Source: Sphingomonas bacterium
GTDB lineage: Bacteria; Pseudomonadota; Alphaproteobacteria; Sphingomonadales; Sphingomonadaceae
Length of the DNA stretch: 43,401 nucleotides
Assembly: GCF_028293085.1 (NCBI RefSeq)
Contig: NZ_JAQGLC010000320.1
Span: 1 to 43,401 of the forward strand
Direction: 5' to 3'
In this document: positions 11,154 through 43,134 of the stretch, piece after piece
How the letters are laid out: each line of letters begins with the position of its first letter
Numbering within the stretch: the first letter of the stretch is position 1
Notes under the pieces: model-generated
Seen by the model: the letters and a program-made list of their open reading frames with translations, nothing else
The model's database searches: none
Told to the model about the DNA's origin: nothing
Translations under genes and position numbers: made by a program

Positions 11154-11255
11154 CCAGAGTCTATGAGGTTCATCTGCCTTTGATCTTTGCTCGGAAGCGC
11201 CGTGGCGACATTGATTGGCGCGGGCGGTTCCGCCCCAAGTCAGTGCGAGATCGAG

Positions 11256-12278
11256 ATGATTCCCTCCCCCTATTTGTTATATCTGGGCAATGCGACAGAT
11301 GAGCTTTCGGTGAAGACCTCACGCGGTGTCGCAGTGTGGCGCCCGGAGCTCTGTGTCGGCGAATATCGCGGTCCCGAAAGCACGGTGACCCTTGGCCTCC
11401 CGCATCTAGAATTCGCGGAAGCGGTGGCGGCGGGCGCGCGCACGCTGGTGCTCGGTGTCGCCAATGCGGGCGGTGTGATGGGGCCACAGGCGATCAGCGA
11501 CGCGGTCGCAGCATTGGAGGCCGGAATGAACGTCGTGTCGGGCTTGCACGATCGCCTCGTCGCGCATCCCGAGATCACTGCTGCCGCGGCGAAGGCGGGC
11601 CTGCAATTGCTCGACGTGCGCAACCCGCCGACCGATCTGGTGGTCGGCAATGGGCGTCCCCGTAGCGGACGCCGGCTGTTGACGGTCGGTACAGATTGCT
11701 CGGTCGGCAAGATGTACACGACGCTCGCGCTGGAACGTGAGATGCGGCAACAGGGAATCCGCGTTGATTTCCGCGCGACGGGACAGACCGGCATCCTCAT
11801 CGCGCATTCGGGTGTCCCGATCGATGCGGTGGTTGCCGACTTCATATCGGGCGCCGCCGAATGGGTCTCGCCGGCGCGCACCGATGGCGGCTGGGACCTG
11901 ATCGAGGGCCAGGGATCGCTTTTTCATCCATCGTTTGCCGGCGTCTCGCTTGGCCTGCTCCATGGATCGCAACCCGACGCGCTCGTCTTGTGCCATGAGA
12001 TCGGGCGTCCCCACATTCGCGGTATTCCAGGGCGGCCGTTGCCGGATTTAAAGACATGTCTCGAGGCTAACCTTACCGCTGCGCGCCTTACAAATCCGGC
12101 GGTTATCGCGGTTGGTGTCGCGCTGAACACATCGCGACTGTCGCCCGAGGATGCGCGCCGCGCCTGCGCCGAGGTGGAGGATCTGCTGGAGCTGCCGTGC
12201 CAGGATCCGATGGTGACGGGTACAGATCGGATCGTCGATTGGATGATGCAATGCTTCGCCACGTCCACGGCCGCGTAG
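11256..12278 (+). CDS. DUF1611 domain protein (P-loop), candidate D-glutamate N-acetyltransferase (DgcN-like)
   Basis: TVGTDCSVGKMYTTLALEREM P-loop and DFRATGQTGILI...GVPIDAVVADFISGAAE...DLIEGQGSLFHPSFAGV signature; overlaps the downstream epimerase gene. Confidence 0.8.
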   Translation: MIPSPYLLYLGNATDELSVKTSRGVAVWRPELCVGEYRGPESTVTLGLPHLEFAEAVAAGARTLVLGVANAGGVMGPQAISDAVAALEAGMNVVSGLHDRLVAHPEITAAAAKAGLQLLDVRNPPTDLVVGNGRPRSGRRLLTVGTDCSVGKMYTTLALEREMRQQGIRVDFRATGQTGILIAHSGVPIDAVVADFISGAAEWVSPARTDGGWDLIEGQGSLFHPSFAGVSLGLLHGSQPDALVLCHEIGRPHIRGIPGRPLPDLKTCLEANLTAARLTNPAVIAVGVALNTSRLSPEDARRACAEVEDLLELPCQDPMVTGTDRIVDWMMQCFATSTAA

Positions 12279-13237
12279 AGCTCTGGCCGCTCGCCGCGCC
12301 GTTCCGGATCTCCCGCGGCGTGAAGACCGTCGCGGAGGTCGTGACGGTCGAGCTGGAGCAGGGCGCCCATATCGGGCGGGGCGAGGCTGTGCCCTATGCC
12401 CGTTACGGCGAATCGTCGGAGGGCGTCCTTCGTCAGATCGAGACGCTGGCGCCGATGCTGGCCGCCGGCCTCTCGCGCACGGAGCTGCGACGAGCCTTGC
12501 CGCCGGGTGCTGCGCGCAATGCGATCGATTGTGCCTTATGGGATCTGGAAGCGCGCTTGTCCGGGCAATCCGTTGCGGTCACGGCGGCCGCGCCGCTCTC
12601 ACCAGTGACGACGGCGTTGACCGTCGGTCTTGATACGCCTGACGCGATGGCCGATGCGGCGGCCGCGCTCACCGGGTCGACGCTGGTCAAGGTCAAGGTG
12701 GATGCGCAGGAGCCGGAGGCGTGCCTGAACGCGGTCCGCCGCGCGCTTCCCGATGCCGCGCTGATCGTCGACCCCAACGAAAGCTGGGACATGGCGTTGC
12801 TCGAACGACTGCAGCCCATGTTGCGGGACCTGCGCATCGCGTTCGTCGAACAGCCGCTGCCGGCGGAAGACGATGCGTGCCTCGAAGGGTTCGAGCCGCT
12901 GGTGCCGATCTGCGCGGACGAATCCTGCCACACCGCAGAAGACCTGCCCGTGCTCGAACGCCGCTACGGCATGATCAACATCAAACTGGACAAGACGGGC
13001 GGACTGACCGAGGCGTTGGAGCTCTATGACGCGGCGCGCGCACGGGGAATGGGCATCATGGTCGGCTGCATGGTGAGCACTTCGCTTTCGATCGCGCCGG
13101 CGCTGCACATCGCCGCGCGGGCGGATTTCGCCGATCTGGATGGACCGTGGTGGCTGAAGGAAGACCGCCCAGGCGGGGTGACGATGCAGGGCAGCACCAT
13201 GCTGCCGCCGGCGCAGGGTTTCTGGGGGACATTATGA
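12251..13237 (+). CDS. Enolase-superfamily dipeptide epimerase, candidate N-acetyl-D-glutamate racemase (DgcA-like)
   Basis: LVKVKVDAQEP, IVDPNESWD, FVEQPLP, CADESCHT and NIKLDKTGGLTEAL motifs of the Ala-Glu epimerase/MLE subgroup. Confidence 0.85.
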   Translation: MLRHVHGRVELWPLAAPFRISRGVKTVAEVVTVELEQGAHIGRGEAVPYARYGESSEGVLRQIETLAPMLAAGLSRTELRRALPPGAARNAIDCALWDLEARLSGQSVAVTAAAPLSPVTTALTVGLDTPDAMADAAAALTGSTLVKVKVDAQEPEACLNAVRRALPDAALIVDPNESWDMALLERLQPMLRDLRIAFVEQPLPAEDDACLEGFEPLVPICADESCHTAEDLPVLERRYGMINIKLDKTGGLTEALELYDAARARGMGIMVGCMVSTSLSIAPALHIAARADFADLDGPWWLKEDRPGGVTMQGSTMLPPAQGFWGTL

Positions 13238-18440: not shown

Positions 18441-19373
18441 TCAGAAGGCGACCCCGTCGCCGCCCTTGAGTCCGAGCATCTCGCGCGCCTCCGCGGGCGT
18501 CGCGACTTCGATATCGAGCACCTCGAGAATCTGGCGGACCTTGCGGACTTGCTCTGCATTGCTTTGGGCGAGCTCGCCGCGCCGGATGAAGAGGCTGTCC
18601 TCGAGCCCGACCCGGACGCTCCCGCCGCCCAGTGCGCACTGGGTCAGGAACTTCATCGGCGGTCGGCCGACCGCGAAGCAGGACAGCATGTAATCGTCGC
18701 CGAACAGCCGGTCCGCGGTCTGCTTCATCAGCATGAAATTCTCGAGATCGGCGCCGATCCCGCCCAGGATCCCGAAGATGCACTGGATCAGGAAGGGCGG
18801 CTTGATCAACCCGGCATCGGCGAAATGCTTGACGTTGTAGAGATGCCCGACATCATAGCATTCATATTCGAAACGGGTGCCGTGCCCCTCGCCAAGCTCG
18901 ACCATGATCCGCTCGATGAGCGCGAAATTATGGTTGGCCGGGAACTGCTTGCTCTTGATCATGAGCTCGCGTTCCCACTCGTGCTTCCAGTCGAACTTGT
19001 CGGCCAGCGGCCAGAAGCCGAAGTTCATCGACCCCATGTTGAGCGAGGTCATTTCCGGGCTGGCGCGCAAGGGGCCGGCCATGCGGTCATCCTCGGAAAA
19101 GCCCGGGGCGCCGCCGGTGGTGATGTTGATCACCGCATCGCAGGATTGTTTGATGCGCGGCAGGAACTGCATGTAGAGTTCGGGATCGGGGGACGGCCGG
19201 CCGTCGCGCGGATCGCGGGCGTGAAGATGCAGGATCGCGGCACCCGCCTCTGCCGCCTCGATCGCCTGCCCGGCGATCTGATCAGGGGTGATCGGCAGAT
19301 AGGGCGACATCGAGGGGGTGTGAATCGATCCGGTCACCGCGCAGGTGATGATCGCTTTGCTCGTCTTCTTCAC
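18441..19373 (-). CDS. 3-keto-5-aminohexanoate cleavage family protein (BKACE, DUF849), copy 1
   Basis: IITCAVTGSIHTPSMSPYLPITPDQIAGQAIEAAEAGAAILHLHARDP and INITTGG motifs. Confidence 0.92.
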   Translation of the reverse strand: MKKTSKAIITCAVTGSIHTPSMSPYLPITPDQIAGQAIEAAEAGAAILHLHARDPRDGRPSPDPELYMQFLPRIKQSCDAVINITTGGAPGFSEDDRMAGPLRASPEMTSLNMGSMNFGFWPLADKFDWKHEWERELMIKSKQFPANHNFALIERIMVELGEGHGTRFEYECYDVGHLYNVKHFADAGLIKPPFLIQCIFGILGGIGADLENFMLMKQTADRLFGDDYMLSCFAVGRPPMKFLTQCALGGGSVRVGLEDSLFIRRGELAQSNAEQVRKVRQILEVLDIEVATPAEAREMLGLKGGDGVAF

Positions 19374-30908: not shown

Positions 30909-31835
30909 ATGAACAAGGTCATCATCACCTGCGCGGTCACGGGCGGCATCCACACCCCGACCATGTCGCCCTATCTGCCGATCACCCCCAGCGAGATCGC
31001 CGCATCCGCGATCGAAGCGGCCGAGGCGGGCGCGGCGATCCTCCATCTCCATGCGCGCGACCCGGAGACGGGAAAGCCGCGGCAGGACCCCGACCTGTTC
31101 ATGGAATTCCTGCCGCGCATCAAACAGTCGACCGACGCGGTGATCAACATCACCACCGGCGGCGGCCTCGGCATGCCGCTCGAGGAGCGGATCGCCCCGG
31201 CGATGCGTGCCAGGCCCGAAGTAGCCAGCCTCAACATGGGCTCGATGAACTTCTGCGCCTTCGAGCTCGCCAACAAGTACAGCGAGTGGAAGTTCGAGTG
31301 GGAAAAGCCTTATCTCGAGAGCACCCGGGCCTCGATCTACCCCAACACCTTCGAGATGATCGAGCGGGTGATGGTCGAGGTCGGACAGGGGCTCGACACC
31401 CGGTTCGAGTTCGAATGCTATGATCTCAGCCATCTGGAGACGCTCAAATATTTCGCCGACAAGGGGCTCGTGAAGCCGCCCTTCCTGATCCAGGGCATTT
31501 TCGGCGTGATAGGCGGGATGGGCGCGACGGTCGAGAATCTCGTCCACTTCAAGGCGACCGCCGACCGCATGTTCGGCGACAGCTATCGCTTCTCCTGCTT
31601 TGCGGTCGGACGCCAGCAAATGGCCTTCCTGACCATCGCCGCGATCATGGGCGGTGCGGTACGGGTCGGGCTCGAGGACAGCCTGTTCATCGGCCGCGGC
31701 AAGCTCGCGGTCTCCAATGCCGAGCAGGTCGCAAAGATCCGCCGCATCGTCGAGGAGTTGGGGCTCGAGGTCGCGAGCCCCGCCGAGGCGCGCACGATGC
31801 TCGGCCTCAAGGGCGGCGACAAGGTCGCCTTCTAG
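30909..31835 (+). CDS. 3-keto-5-aminohexanoate cleavage family protein (BKACE, DUF849), copy 2
   Basis: IITCAVTGGIHTPTMSPYLPITPSEIAASAIEAAEAGAAILHLHARDPETG; paralogous to the 18441-19373 protein. Confidence 0.93.
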   Translation: MNKVIITCAVTGGIHTPTMSPYLPITPSEIAASAIEAAEAGAAILHLHARDPETGKPRQDPDLFMEFLPRIKQSTDAVINITTGGGLGMPLEERIAPAMRARPEVASLNMGSMNFCAFELANKYSEWKFEWEKPYLESTRASIYPNTFEMIERVMVEVGQGLDTRFEFECYDLSHLETLKYFADKGLVKPPFLIQGIFGVIGGMGATVENLVHFKATADRMFGDSYRFSCFAVGRQQMAFLTIAAIMGGAVRVGLEDSLFIGRGKLAVSNAEQVAKIRRIVEELGLEVASPAEARTMLGLKGGDKVAF

Positions 31836-36890: not shown

Positions 36891-37305
36891 GGGCCCGATA
36901 CATTAGAGCTGCGTGCGTGAAATCCGATCTGAACCGCCCCGGGTCACGTCACGAGTCGTATCGGATCGCATCTGCTGGCTCCGGCAGCGGCCAGAGCAAA
37001 CAGGGTCGCTGTCCGAGGTTCAAGCTCGTCGATGTGCTCGCCTGGATGGAGACGCGCGCCCTCTGGTGATGTTGCGGCGCGCCGGCCACTAATGGGGTGG
37101 CATTGGCGTCGGTGCACCGCTTCATCGCCGGGGACGCGCAGAATCTCCGTGATGCTTGCGCGTGGATTGCGGTTGAACTGCGTAATCATGTTGCCGCTCT
37201 GGTCGGCCGGGCCGCTCGCCGAGCTGTCCACCTGGGACAGGGTCGGGACCACGGTCGATGTCAGCGCGCTGATGCAGCCGACCGGAACGCAACCGCGCGG
37301 ATGGC

Positions 37306-39051
37306 TTACAGATGCGGATACCAGACATAACGACCGCCGAAGGCTCGCCAGTCCATCGCAAACGGGGCTTCCCAGGAATTACGCATCGAAAAGCCGAGCA
37401 CGCGGCCGTCCGACAGCAGGACGCCAAGCTCGTCGTTCCGGTCCGTCAGGAGAATGCAGCCGGTGTAGACCGGCAGGTCAGGCCCGGCGAGATACAGCTC
37501 CTTGCCGATGCCGCCGATCAATTCCGCGAAGTCGGACGTCGCAAAAGGCGTTCCGCTTGTCACGTCGCGCAGGAAATACTCGAGCGGGTCGGAGCCGCGC
37601 AGCGTGGAGAAATGCGTATCCAGCAGAGCCGCAAAGCGTTTCATGTCGGGCCCCCAGAAGGCGCCGATCGCGGATTTGTCGTCGAGCGGCCTCTCCAGCA
37701 TTGGCTGCCAGGCCCGCCTGATGACGCCTGACAATCCCGGGCGGCGATGGAAGCGGGTGCCGCCCGGATAGGCGACGATGGCATCGGTCACCATCCGCTT
37801 CTCCGCCGCCAGCACCAGCGCCCAGTGCGCGCCGTCGGCGACGATCGGATTGGCGATGAGCACGAGGTCGCCAGGAGCAAGGTCTTCGGTGGCGCCGCGA
37901 AACCGTCCGCCGGTGAGCATGGCTTTGTAGACGCCGGTCTCGTCCATTTCGTCTCTCGGCACACGGACGAAGGGCTTGAGTGCCGGAATCGCCTTCACCA
38001 GGCCGGCAAACAGCGCCGCCAGCGGCTCGCCGGCCGGCTCCATCTCGGCCTTGTCCAGCTTCTGCAACGGCTCCAGCGACATTGACCACACCGCGCTCGG
38101 CGCGACAGGCCCCGGATAGGGCGGTACCGGCGGCCGCCCGGCGAGAAGCTGGTCCGCCCATGCAATCAGGCCGCGCCGAATCTCCGTCCGCTGCTGAAGG
38201 ATCGCCCCGAACGGATGCTCGGCTGGCGGGTCTGCTGCATCCGGCGACTGAACCGCCTCGAGCCTTCGCTCGGCCCGGACCGGAGGCGGTTCTGCCGGCG
38301 GTTCTTCCGGCGGTGCCGCGGGTTCTGCCGCCGGGTCGACGGGTACATCGACGATCTGGGCCTTGTCGGCCAGGTAGCTGTTCGCGTTCTTTAAGGCTTC
38401 GGGATCGGTATCCGCCACCACAGGGGCGGCCTGCGGCTCGGCTGCGTCGGTCGCGGCCTGCTCCGCTGCGGCGTGCTTTGCTTCGATCGACTTGATGAAC
38501 GCGTTCAGCTGCGCGATCTGCTCGTCGGTCGTCGGCACGGGATGCCGCAATGCATCGAGTGTCGAACTGAACAGGTCGCCGACGCGTTCGGCGAGGCGTT
38601 TGAAGCCGGTCGACGCGGGGCCGATGGTCTCGATCTGCGGCTGCCCGCCCGGGATGACGAGATAGGGTGTGTAGGCGCTCGGATCGACGACATAACTCGG
38701 GGCGGCGTTCATCGGCGGGCCCAGCAGCGTGACCGACTGGTCGACAAAGGACGTGTTGACAGCCGTTCCGAACAGGGTGACGAACTGGTTGGCCGCGAAA
38801 TGCTCATGCACATATTGGCTGATCGCGACCATCTCGCGGGCGCTGATCGTGACCCGGTCGTCATGGTCGCGCGAGGCGGCCTGATGGATGAGGACGCCAT
38901 ACTGAAACAGAAGCGACGGCGCGCCGCTGTACATTGCGTGGCCCTGTTTCATCAGGATGAATTCGTTCCGCGGGTCGATCCCGGTCATCCAGGACGACGA
39001 CTCGATCAGGGTGCCCAGATTCTTCGGCGGCTCGGCTGCCTGGTCTACCAT
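37306..39051 (-). CDS. Uncharacterised 581-aa protein: N-terminal domain, Pro/Ala/Glu-rich linker and C-terminal YVWYPHL domain
   Basis: Long ORF with AGGAGC SD 9 nt downstream of the upstream paralog; C-terminal ~230 aa align by eye with the 39061-39927 protein. Confidence 0.85.
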   Translation of the reverse strand: MVDQAAEPPKNLGTLIESSSWMTGIDPRNEFILMKQGHAMYSGAPSLLFQYGVLIHQAASRDHDDRVTISAREMVAISQYVHEHFAANQFVTLFGTAVNTSFVDQSVTLLGPPMNAAPSYVVDPSAYTPYLVIPGGQPQIETIGPASTGFKRLAERVGDLFSSTLDALRHPVPTTDEQIAQLNAFIKSIEAKHAAAEQAATDAAEPQAAPVVADTDPEALKNANSYLADKAQIVDVPVDPAAEPAAPPEEPPAEPPPVRAERRLEAVQSPDAADPPAEHPFGAILQQRTEIRRGLIAWADQLLAGRPPVPPYPGPVAPSAVWSMSLEPLQKLDKAEMEPAGEPLAALFAGLVKAIPALKPFVRVPRDEMDETGVYKAMLTGGRFRGATEDLAPGDLVLIANPIVADGAHWALVLAAEKRMVTDAIVAYPGGTRFHRRPGLSGVIRRAWQPMLERPLDDKSAIGAFWGPDMKRFAALLDTHFSTLRGSDPLEYFLRDVTSGTPFATSDFAELIGGIGKELYLAGPDLPVYTGCILLTDRNDELGVLLSDGRVLGFSMRNSWEAPFAMDWRAFGGRYVWYPHL

Positions 39052-39060
39052 GCTCGGCTC

Positions 39061-39927
39061 CTAGAGATGCGGGTACCAGACATAGGCCGGCCGAAACTCA
39101 GACAGGCTCATATGCGCGGCGAAATTGTCGAGACTGTCTTCCCGGATGCCGAGCACGGTCCGGTCGGGCAGCGAAACACCGATCTCCTCGTCACGCTCGG
39201 TCAGAAGGACGGCGCCCGGCCAGAGCGGCAGGTCGTCCGCCCAGGGATAAAGCTCGTGTCCGATCGCCTCCAGCAGCGCGGAAAAGCTCGATGTGTCGTA
39301 CCGCACGCTTGGAAATATAGTGTCGAGCAGGTCGAGAATATTGCCTGGGCGAGCCGTCAGGAGATGGCGATACCGCGTAAGCACCGGGCCCCAGAACGCA
39401 CCGATCTGGGTGTCATCGCGCAGGACACGCTCGGATGTCGGTGTCCAGACCGATGTCGGGCCGCCCGCTGGTCCGCCCTTCAGCGTCTCCGTCGTGAAGA
39501 CAGGCTCGTCCCCCGAAAAGGAAAGAGTGAGCGCCGAACTGATCTCGCGTCCCTGCGCGGCGAGGATGATCAGCCAGTGCCCGTTGAGAAGCGCAAGGCT
39601 TCCGGGATGGAGGTCGCTCGACGGGTCGGACCGTCCGAAGCTGTAGGTAAGGTTCCGCAGCTCGGCCGCATCGAACACGTCCATGAAGGCCGGCGCGAAG
39701 AAATTCCCGAAGTCCGGAATGCCCCTGGCCAGCCCGGCGACCATGGCATCGAGATGGTCGTCATCGTCGAACACGGTAAATCCGACCGGTTTGCCGTCGA
39801 GCTCGCCAAGGTCGCCCGAGCCAATGGTGAACGGCACATCCATTGGCCCCGGGCCCTGCGCCTGCGGTATCGGAGGACGACGTATCGGGTCGATCCGGTC
39901 TGCTCGGGTCTTCTTGGAACCTGCCAT
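39061..39927 (-). CDS. Uncharacterised 288-aa protein with C-terminal YVWYPHL domain
   Basis: Strong SD GCGGAGG before ATG at 39927; shares IGAFWGP, xELYxxxxDLPxxxGxxLLTxRxxExGVxLxDxxVLG and YVWYPHL with the neighbouring gene. Confidence 0.85.
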   Translation of the reverse strand: MAGSKKTRADRIDPIRRPPIPQAQGPGPMDVPFTIGSGDLGELDGKPVGFTVFDDDDHLDAMVAGLARGIPDFGNFFAPAFMDVFDAAELRNLTYSFGRSDPSSDLHPGSLALLNGHWLIILAAQGREISSALTLSFSGDEPVFTTETLKGGPAGGPTSVWTPTSERVLRDDTQIGAFWGPVLTRYRHLLTARPGNILDLLDTIFPSVRYDTSSFSALLEAIGHELYPWADDLPLWPGAVLLTERDEEIGVSLPDRTVLGIREDSLDNFAAHMSLSEFRPAYVWYPHL

Positions 39928-40471: not shown

Positions 40472-41059
40472 CTAGGGATGCAGATCCCGAAGGCGGCCGC
40501 CGATCGCGCCACTGACGCTCCCGATGAAAGCACCCACGACGAGCGACAGGCCCGTAAATGTCGCAAGCTCGGCAGCGACCTTTCGTGCTGCTTCGGCTGC
40601 TTCGGCGGTTGCCGGAGCGTCAATCGGCGTCGCCGCCACGGTGGACAGCGCTGCCGCAACAACGGTGATCACCGCCATGACGACGGTCGCCGTCGCCCAG
40701 GTCAGCAGACCATGGGCCGTGTCTCGGAAGAACACCTCGTCACCGTGCAGACCGTGCCAGCGAACGCGCAGCCTGCCGGCAAGATAACCGCCCATGGCGA
40801 CTGACAGCCATTGCGTGACGATCAACCAGATTCCCGCGCCGATCGTGAATGTGGTTGGCCTTGCCCCTACGCCGGGCCAGGCTGAAACTGACGCCAGGCC
40901 GAAGGCTGAGCCCAGCGTCAGCAGCGTCAGGGTGAGGGCGATCGCGGCCACCGTGCCGGCGGAAACCGCGGACCAGGATACAGCCGAGCCACTCGAGGCA
41001 GGCGGAACGTCACCTGGATAGAGAGCGGGATCGACTGCGCGATAGGAATCGTTTGCCAT
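40472..41059 (-). CDS. Multi-pass integral membrane protein of unknown function
   Basis: MANDSYRAVDPALYPGDV... followed by hydrophobic helices (AGTVAAIALTLTLLTLGSAFGLASV, WLIVTQWLSVAMGGYLAG, VVMAVITVVAAAL); begins 2 nt after the upstream mini-ORF stop. Confidence 0.75.
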   Translation of the reverse strand: MANDSYRAVDPALYPGDVPPASSGSAVSWSAVSAGTVAAIALTLTLLTLGSAFGLASVSAWPGVGARPTTFTIGAGIWLIVTQWLSVAMGGYLAGRLRVRWHGLHGDEVFFRDTAHGLLTWATATVVMAVITVVAAALSTVAATPIDAPATAEAAEAARKVAAELATFTGLSLVVGAFIGSVSGAIGGRLRDLHP

Positions 41060-41061
41060 GA

Positions 41062-41139
41062 TCAGTGCCATATCAGGAGGAGAATAAGGATGATGGGCAG
41101 CGGTATGCCCAGCAGCCACAACAAGATGCCTTTTCCCAT
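41062..41139 (-). CDS. 25-aa hydrophobic mini-protein MGKGILLWLLGIPLPIILILLLIWH
   Basis: Strong SD (AAGGAGGAGGACACT) 5' of ATG at 41139; single TM helix; directly precedes the membrane protein gene. Confidence 0.7.
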   Translation of the reverse strand: MGKGILLWLLGIPLPIILILLLIWH

Positions 41140-41420
41140 AGTGTCCTCCTCCTTCTCCCGCCGAAGTGGCGGTTCGATTGCGTAACGTGCTGTGGGAGCG
41201 GGAGTTCCTGCGGCTGGCGATGGCCAGCCGTGACCGGCGGCGCCGCAGCGGTCTGAGCGTGAACGTAGCACCGGGCACGGCTCGGTTGCGTGAGCATGGA
41301 GCAATTCGCGCCGTTCGTTCATGTGGTAAGCAAGAATCGCTGCGGCAGGCTGGCCGATTTCCGCCTGACTCTAGCGCCGGAGTTGACCTGAATCGCCTGC
41401 GCCCCTACCTCGCACCCGTA

Positions 41421-42599: not shown

Positions 42600-42891
42600 G
42601 GCGACCGAGCGCCCAAGGCCTTCCTCGCGCTCGAGCCTAACGTGCGTATATGCATAAATGAGTTGCCGGCAGTGACGCGGTTGTTCCGGGCCGCCGCTAT
42701 GCTGTGCTGCGGATAATTTCCGAGCGTCCGTTGACGGGAATTCCGGAGCCGACGACCCGGCGCCGATACCTCCAGATCTTCCTTCCTTTCGCGCCGACGA
42801 CGATCCACAGGCCCTGGGTAAGGGGATCAGCCATCCGGCCGGTTACAAGTGCATCAATGCTGTCCGGCGTGAGGTTTTGCCTTCTCGACAT
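42600..42891 (-). pseudogene. Tyrosine-type integrase (Arm DNA-binding/DUF4102 N-terminus), frameshifted and truncated
   Basis: MSRRQNLTPDSIDALVTGRMADPLTQGLWIVVGAKGRKIWRYRRRV in one frame continues as RTLGNYPQHSIAAARNNR in another frame (ORF 42569-42808), matching the LGxYPxxSIAxAR integrase motif. Confidence 0.75.
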
Positions 42892-42912
42892 CTCCGACTC
42901 CACGTCGGTCTC

Positions 42913-42955
42913 GGGGCACAAACCCACCAAAACAGGGCACAAATTGGGGCACAAG
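42913..42955. repeat. Three direct repeats GGGGCACAAA / AGGGCACAAA / GGGGCACAAG
   Basis: At 42913, 42934 and 42946, directly upstream of the integrase relic; candidate integrase arm-type sites. Confidence 0.6.
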
Positions 42956-43058: not shown

Positions 43059-43134
43059 TGGTGCCGGTTGCAGGAATCGAACCCGCGACCTTCGGTTTAC
43101 AAAACCGCTGCTCTACCAGCTGAGCTAAACCGGC
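43059..43134 (-). tRNA. tRNA-Thr(TGT), CCA encoded
   Basis: Reverse complement GCCGGTTTAGCTCAGCTGGTAGAGCAGCGGTTTTGTAAACCGAAGGTCGCGGGTTCGATTCCTGCAACCGGCACCA folds as a cloverleaf with loop TTTGTAA. Confidence 0.95.

Follow-up and report, generated by a model that had tools for sequence, protein, structure and literature searches.

Two tandem genes of the window (the whole stretch of Sphingomonas DNA analysed here, 43,401 nucleotides) encode paralogous proteins. Our favoured reading, held tentatively, is that they form a translationally coupled cytoplasmic pair of non-catalytic ligand binders, sharing a tandem NlpC/P60-like module devoid of the catalytic cysteine. The genes are arranged as follows.

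39061-39927, minus strand: gene 1 (protein P0002), 288 aa, almost entirely composed of the shared two-domain module, with zero cysteines.
39052-39060, minus strand: intergenic gap of exactly 9 nt, gene 1 lying upstream of gene 2.
37306-39051, minus strand: gene 2 (protein P0001), 581 aa, with an N-terminal region (residues 1-175), a linker and the shared module (residues 306-581).

The tandem ORFs, the 9-nt gap and the good SD sequences described in the original prediction were all confirmed on the minus strand. An SD-like GGAGG is present ahead of the ATG of gene 1, with a spacing of ~6-8 nt. The SD of gene 2 (AGGAG, ~6-8 nt before its ATG) overlaps the TAG stop of gene 1 (CTCTAGGAGCCGAGCATG), the junction reading CAT CTC TAG GAGCCGAGC ATG. 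This overlap suggests translational coupling, and from the layout of the sequence the two genes probably constitute one translationally coupled operon. No promoter-like site was found, and the search for Rfam elements returned none besides a tRNA.

By sequence comparison the 288-aa protein is clearly paralogous to residues 306-581 of the 581-aa protein: BLASTP aligns P0001 306-581 with P0002 17-288 at 111 bits, E 6e-32 and 33% identity. The homology of the two C-termini, first proposed by eye, is thus borne out. The shared region is real, its length being ~275 aa, i.e. nearly the whole small protein, and not the ~230 aa initially estimated. Identity between the paralogs at codon positions 1, 2 and 3 is 54, 56 and 40% respectively (29, 26 and 34% by chance), about half of the residues that are identical between them (49 of 96) are specified by different codons, and the GC3 of the pair (0.81 and 0.76) matches that of the neighbouring genes. 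These codon statistics and GC3 values show that both genes are genuine, constrained coding sequences. An antisense ORF of 518 aa runs across the pair; we consider it a high-GC artefact because it is the annotated frame that carries the paralog signal.

Beyond the paralogy, the following regions were delimited in the two proteins.

38527-39051, minus strand: N-terminal region of gene 2 (residues 1-175), for which relatives were searched and none found.
37689-38049, minus strand: putative NlpC/P60-like domain 1 of gene 2 (residues ~335-455), from hhalign.
37306-37689, minus strand: domain 2 of gene 2 (residues 455-581), with a predicted NlpC/P60-like strand order.
39415-39786, minus strand: putative NlpC/P60-like domain 1 of gene 1 (residues ~48-171), from hhalign, weak when taken alone.
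39061-39420, minus strand: domain 2 of gene 1 (residues 170-288), with the same motifs as domain 2 of gene 2.

In P0001 a linker rich in Ala, Pro and Glu (24%, 14% and 10% respectively) occupies about residues 176-300. Domain 1 is marked by F348-AGLV (at the Cys column), VPRD, PGDLVLI and HW409 in P0001, and by VAGLA, PGSLALL and HW117 in P0002. The motifs of domain 2 in P0001 are IGAFWGP, ATSDF, ELY....DLP...G..LLT.R and the terminal YVWYPHL. IGAFWGP (37648-37668 and 39385-39405) and YVWYPHL (37309-37329 and 39064-39084) lie exactly where they had been placed beforehand. No internal repeat, domain 1 against domain 2, is detectable by sequence. The cytoplasmic character proposed for the proteins is supported, neither of them having an apparent signal peptide or TM helix: the maximal 19-residue Kyte-Doolittle values are 1.65 and 1.22, and neither maximum is N-terminal. 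P0002 has no cysteine, and the only one of P0001, C532, is located on a strand, outside the catalytic position, and is not conserved.

The strands of NlpC/P60 enzymes follow the scheme GDLVFF...HVGIY-GDG-FIHA. The comparison with this family was triggered by motifs noticed by eye, PGDLVLI...HWALV in the first half of the module and G-ILLT...ELGV-L-DGRVLG in the second. We assembled a profile of 39 NlpC/P60 sequences from PF00877 matches in genomes, against which domain 1 of the pair gave by hhalign a probability of 62%, E 7.6e-5 and a score of 29.8. None of 400 column shuffles reached this score (best 19.4), and reversing the query or the template left nothing. With the Spr-type subset of the family the probability was 71% and E 3.6e-5. 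These single-comparison E-values are optimistic, because NlpC/P60 was chosen after the motif had been spotted. The signal is limited to 33-44 columns and is largely due to P0001; with P0002 alone, E is 0.02. MAFFT and hhalign agree on the register, in which F348-AGLV falls on the C-SGLV column and VPRD, PGDLV and H409 are aligned. The catalytic His column is thus occupied by H409 in P0001 and H117 in P0002, in domain 1 only, and the catalytic-Cys column contains Phe (F348, P0001) or Val. The alignments are suggestive of an NlpC/P60 (papain-like) fold for domain 1, a reading that we hold to be somewhat more probable than its opposite.

The serious competitor of this reading is that the pair belongs to an orphan family with another, possibly new fold, the likeness to NlpC/P60 being due to a chance short motif (PGDLVLI...HW) and to an unreliable model. 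Several results are in line with it. HMMER with our own 39-sequence profile gave a non-significant E of 0.12 for the fragment (0.25 for a shuffled decoy), and hmmscan did not report Pfam PF00877 for the pair at E 10. In the same hhalign test, an unrelated aminotransferase fragment carrying RGDVVLLHG scores 21.3. But the score of domain 1 is clearly above all 400 shuffles and above the 149 real fragments of other window proteins submitted to this test, the best of which reached 22.4.

Domain 2 has no significant match with NlpC/P60 by sequence, and its comparison relies on a model built from a two-row alignment (pLDDT 62.4, pTM 0.61). The model displays the order helix-strand-strand-strand-strand-strand, like NlpC/P60. 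Searched against BFVD, a library of viral structures, it returned an NlpC/P60 protein at rank 1 (E 0.014, probability 0.99), two others at ranks 6 and 8 (probabilities 0.87 and 0.84) and a Tae1-like "Type VI secretion exported 1" protein at rank 18, no E being below 0.001. This independent structural search, which also leads to NlpC/P60, argues against a new fold; the Foldseek search of PDB with the same model, which gave no significant or coherent match, argues for it. By inspection, the core helix of the model starts at ATSDF/DTSSF, where NlpC/P60 has DCSG(F/L), and a Glu occupies the position of the NlpC/P60 His. The NlpC/P60 reading of domain 2 is, on this model, plausible. A model of the whole module is poor (pLDDT 40.6), again in keeping with the new-fold alternative; the NlpC/P60 enzyme CwlO appears at ranks 20 and 31 of its PDB matches, and we consider this model too poor for interpretation.

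Family libraries bring no further support to either protein, and this silence also fits a new fold: searches of Pfam, NCBIfam, PHROG, PADLOC and PDB sequences gave no family match. The initial impression that no family was recognisable therefore holds as far as these libraries are concerned; it has to be amended by the suggestive, sub-threshold relation to NlpC/P60 (papain-like) proteins lacking the catalytic cysteine. Sub-threshold matches to Pfam LTXXQ and CBM-like, to NCBIfam FcmC and dihydroorotase and to phrog_29594 were disregarded. LRAT (PF04970) was rejected as well: the HW is present but is followed by no NCEHF Cys motif, and hhalign against two LRAT sequences gave E 0.28-0.48. The genome itself contains no PF04970 member, and no member of Peptidase C92 (PF05708) was found in the 14 genomes searched.

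Homologues were searched widely. In the genome that carries the pair only the two window copies were found, and no relative was detected at the order, class, phylum, genus and family levels (several hundred genomes at each level, ~1,700 with overlap counted), the pair being absent from the ~250 genomes searched within the genus. Two pattern scans of GTDB, pattern scans of IMG/VR and tblastn against phages and plasmids gave no homologue. That the degenerate motif pattern is effective is shown by its recovery of both window copies. Four genome matches were weak (E 0.001-0.005) and were rejected, as they lie over or opposite unrelated genes. These searches used seed filters and sampling and may have omitted near-identical genomes, so that the pair can be called "very rare" but not "unique". 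It is an orphan pair, found in a single draft genome within a large genus. Membership among prophage proteins found no support (no PHROG match, no relatives in phage collections), nor did a known anti-phage defence system, no PADLOC model being matched.

Compared with the NlpC/P60 family (PF00877, peptidase C40), domain 1 has the AGLV helix, the PRD, the PGDLV strand and the His in register, and domain 2 has the predicted strand order and the viral structure matches. The pair differs from it by the missing catalytic Cys, by falling below Pfam detection, by its apparently tandem domains and by the absence of a signal peptide. Without a usable cysteine ordinary Cys catalysis is excluded, and a normal thiol peptidase or amidase activity is impossible. 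NlpC/P60-like domains devoid of the catalytic cysteine would most likely be non-catalytic binding proteins. A precedent is RipD (Rv1566c) of Mycobacterium tuberculosis, whose altered NlpC/P60 catalytic residues go with binding rather than cutting of peptidoglycan (PMC6628586). The likeness to our pair is by analogy: RipD is predicted to be secreted, whereas the pair appears cytoplasmic and duplicated. The inactive papain-like family DUF1175 (PF06672) is also said to bind peptidoglycan (PMC10318531); the pair has no Pfam match to PF06672.

In the favoured reading, that of coupled non-catalytic binders, the shared modules would grip either a partner protein or a ligand resembling a peptide or cell-wall material. 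Since neither protein has an export signal, the ligand is expected to be intracellular, with a muropeptide, a peptide tail and a partner protein as candidates. For two paralogs, coupling at the level of translation suggests a heteromer, in which P0001 and P0002 would associate via their shared modules; the long protein would add its N-terminal domain, carried by a flexible arm rich in Ala, Pro and Glu. Whether these genes represent an undescribed family of cytoplasmic, Cys-less tandem NlpC/P60-like pseudoenzymes, a paralog operon in which a cell-wall hydrolase fold would have become an intracellular complex for binding, is more doubtful. If the fold reading is true, the pair represents a cysteine-free, duplicated branch of a well-known hydrolase superfamily, retained as a cytoplasmic operon. 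It could then illustrate how a cell-wall-cutting fold is converted for binding, with RipD as the counterpart outside the membrane. If it is false, what is left is an orphan family for which the sequences searched contain no relatives.

Tae1 and Tse1 are active Cys enzymes delivered by the T6SS. They have a papain-like fold, and the weak structural match of domain 2 to a viral protein concerns a Tae1-like one; the pair differs from them in that it has no usable Cys and that no T6SS sheath gene was found in the draft genome. The original prediction had mentioned an effector-like two-gene system, which could take the form of an effector or toxin, e.g. an NlpC/P60 effector that has degenerated, accompanied by a paralog acting as partner or immunity protein. 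The pairing of the genes and their accessory location would suit this proposal, as would the occurrence of NlpC/P60-type folds in the interbacterial amidase effectors Tae1/Tse1 (PMC10318531). But it seems very improbable: the catalytic cysteine is missing, the draft genome (90% complete) has no T6SS sheath gene (PF05591), there is neither a PADLOC match nor a signal sequence for export, the window contains no toxin or secretion gene, and no toxin, immunity or secretion partner adjoins the pair.

The source genome, of which the window is one contig, is a draft of 401 contigs and 5.0 Mb, with 90% completeness and 5.6% contamination. Upstream of the pair are genes of amino-acid/amide catabolism (BKACE, hydantoinase A/B, aminotransferase), and on the other flank a membrane protein gene, MntP and a tRNA-Thr with an integrase relic. 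The relic (42697-42954), already pointed out in the original prediction, matches only Arm-DNA-bind_3, below the cut-off (17.9 vs 27 bits), but this N-terminal relic directly adjoins the 3' side of tRNA-Thr (TGT, 43059-43134), which suits an integration site. A 48-nt, 96% identical copy of the 3' part of this tRNA is present in the same genome at positions 29695-29742 of contig C34, where there is no tRNA gene. The tRNA-Thr/relic site and the C34 copy may be the two ends of one integrated element, and the pair may have arrived with this tRNA-Thr-linked accessory region. Comparable copies of 45-50 nt of a tRNA 3' part are carried by several relatives.

The pair could then be decaying or transient cargo of such an element, i.e. 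formerly functional proteins with no role now. The tRNA-Thr with its adjoining relic, the 48-nt copy elsewhere and the absence of the pair from the ~250 genomes of the genus are all compatible with this history. But we hold it improbable, given that the genes are intact, have good SD sites and have accumulated coding-type substitutions since their duplication.

Other features of the window can be mentioned. Two BKACE-like genes, at 18441-19373 (by eye) and 30909-31835 (PF05853 confirmed), flank the catabolic cluster, which comprises an MFS transporter, a GntR-type regulator, an AMP-ligase, a TonB receptor, a beta-lactamase-type hydrolase, two SDRs, hydantoinase A/B and the aminotransferase. 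At 11187-13237, after a LysR-type regulator, DUF1611 stands beside an enolase-superfamily (MR_MLE) gene and a transporter. The interval between the aminotransferase and the pair (36944-37252) looks non-coding; the ORF listed there has poor codon usage and is perhaps what remains of a gene. The membrane protein gene (40472-41278) is ~74% identical at the DNA level to genes of two genomes of the same genus, the neighbours of these counterparts being different: an Nramp-like transporter in one (L010) and a calcium-binding-repeat protein in the other (L011).
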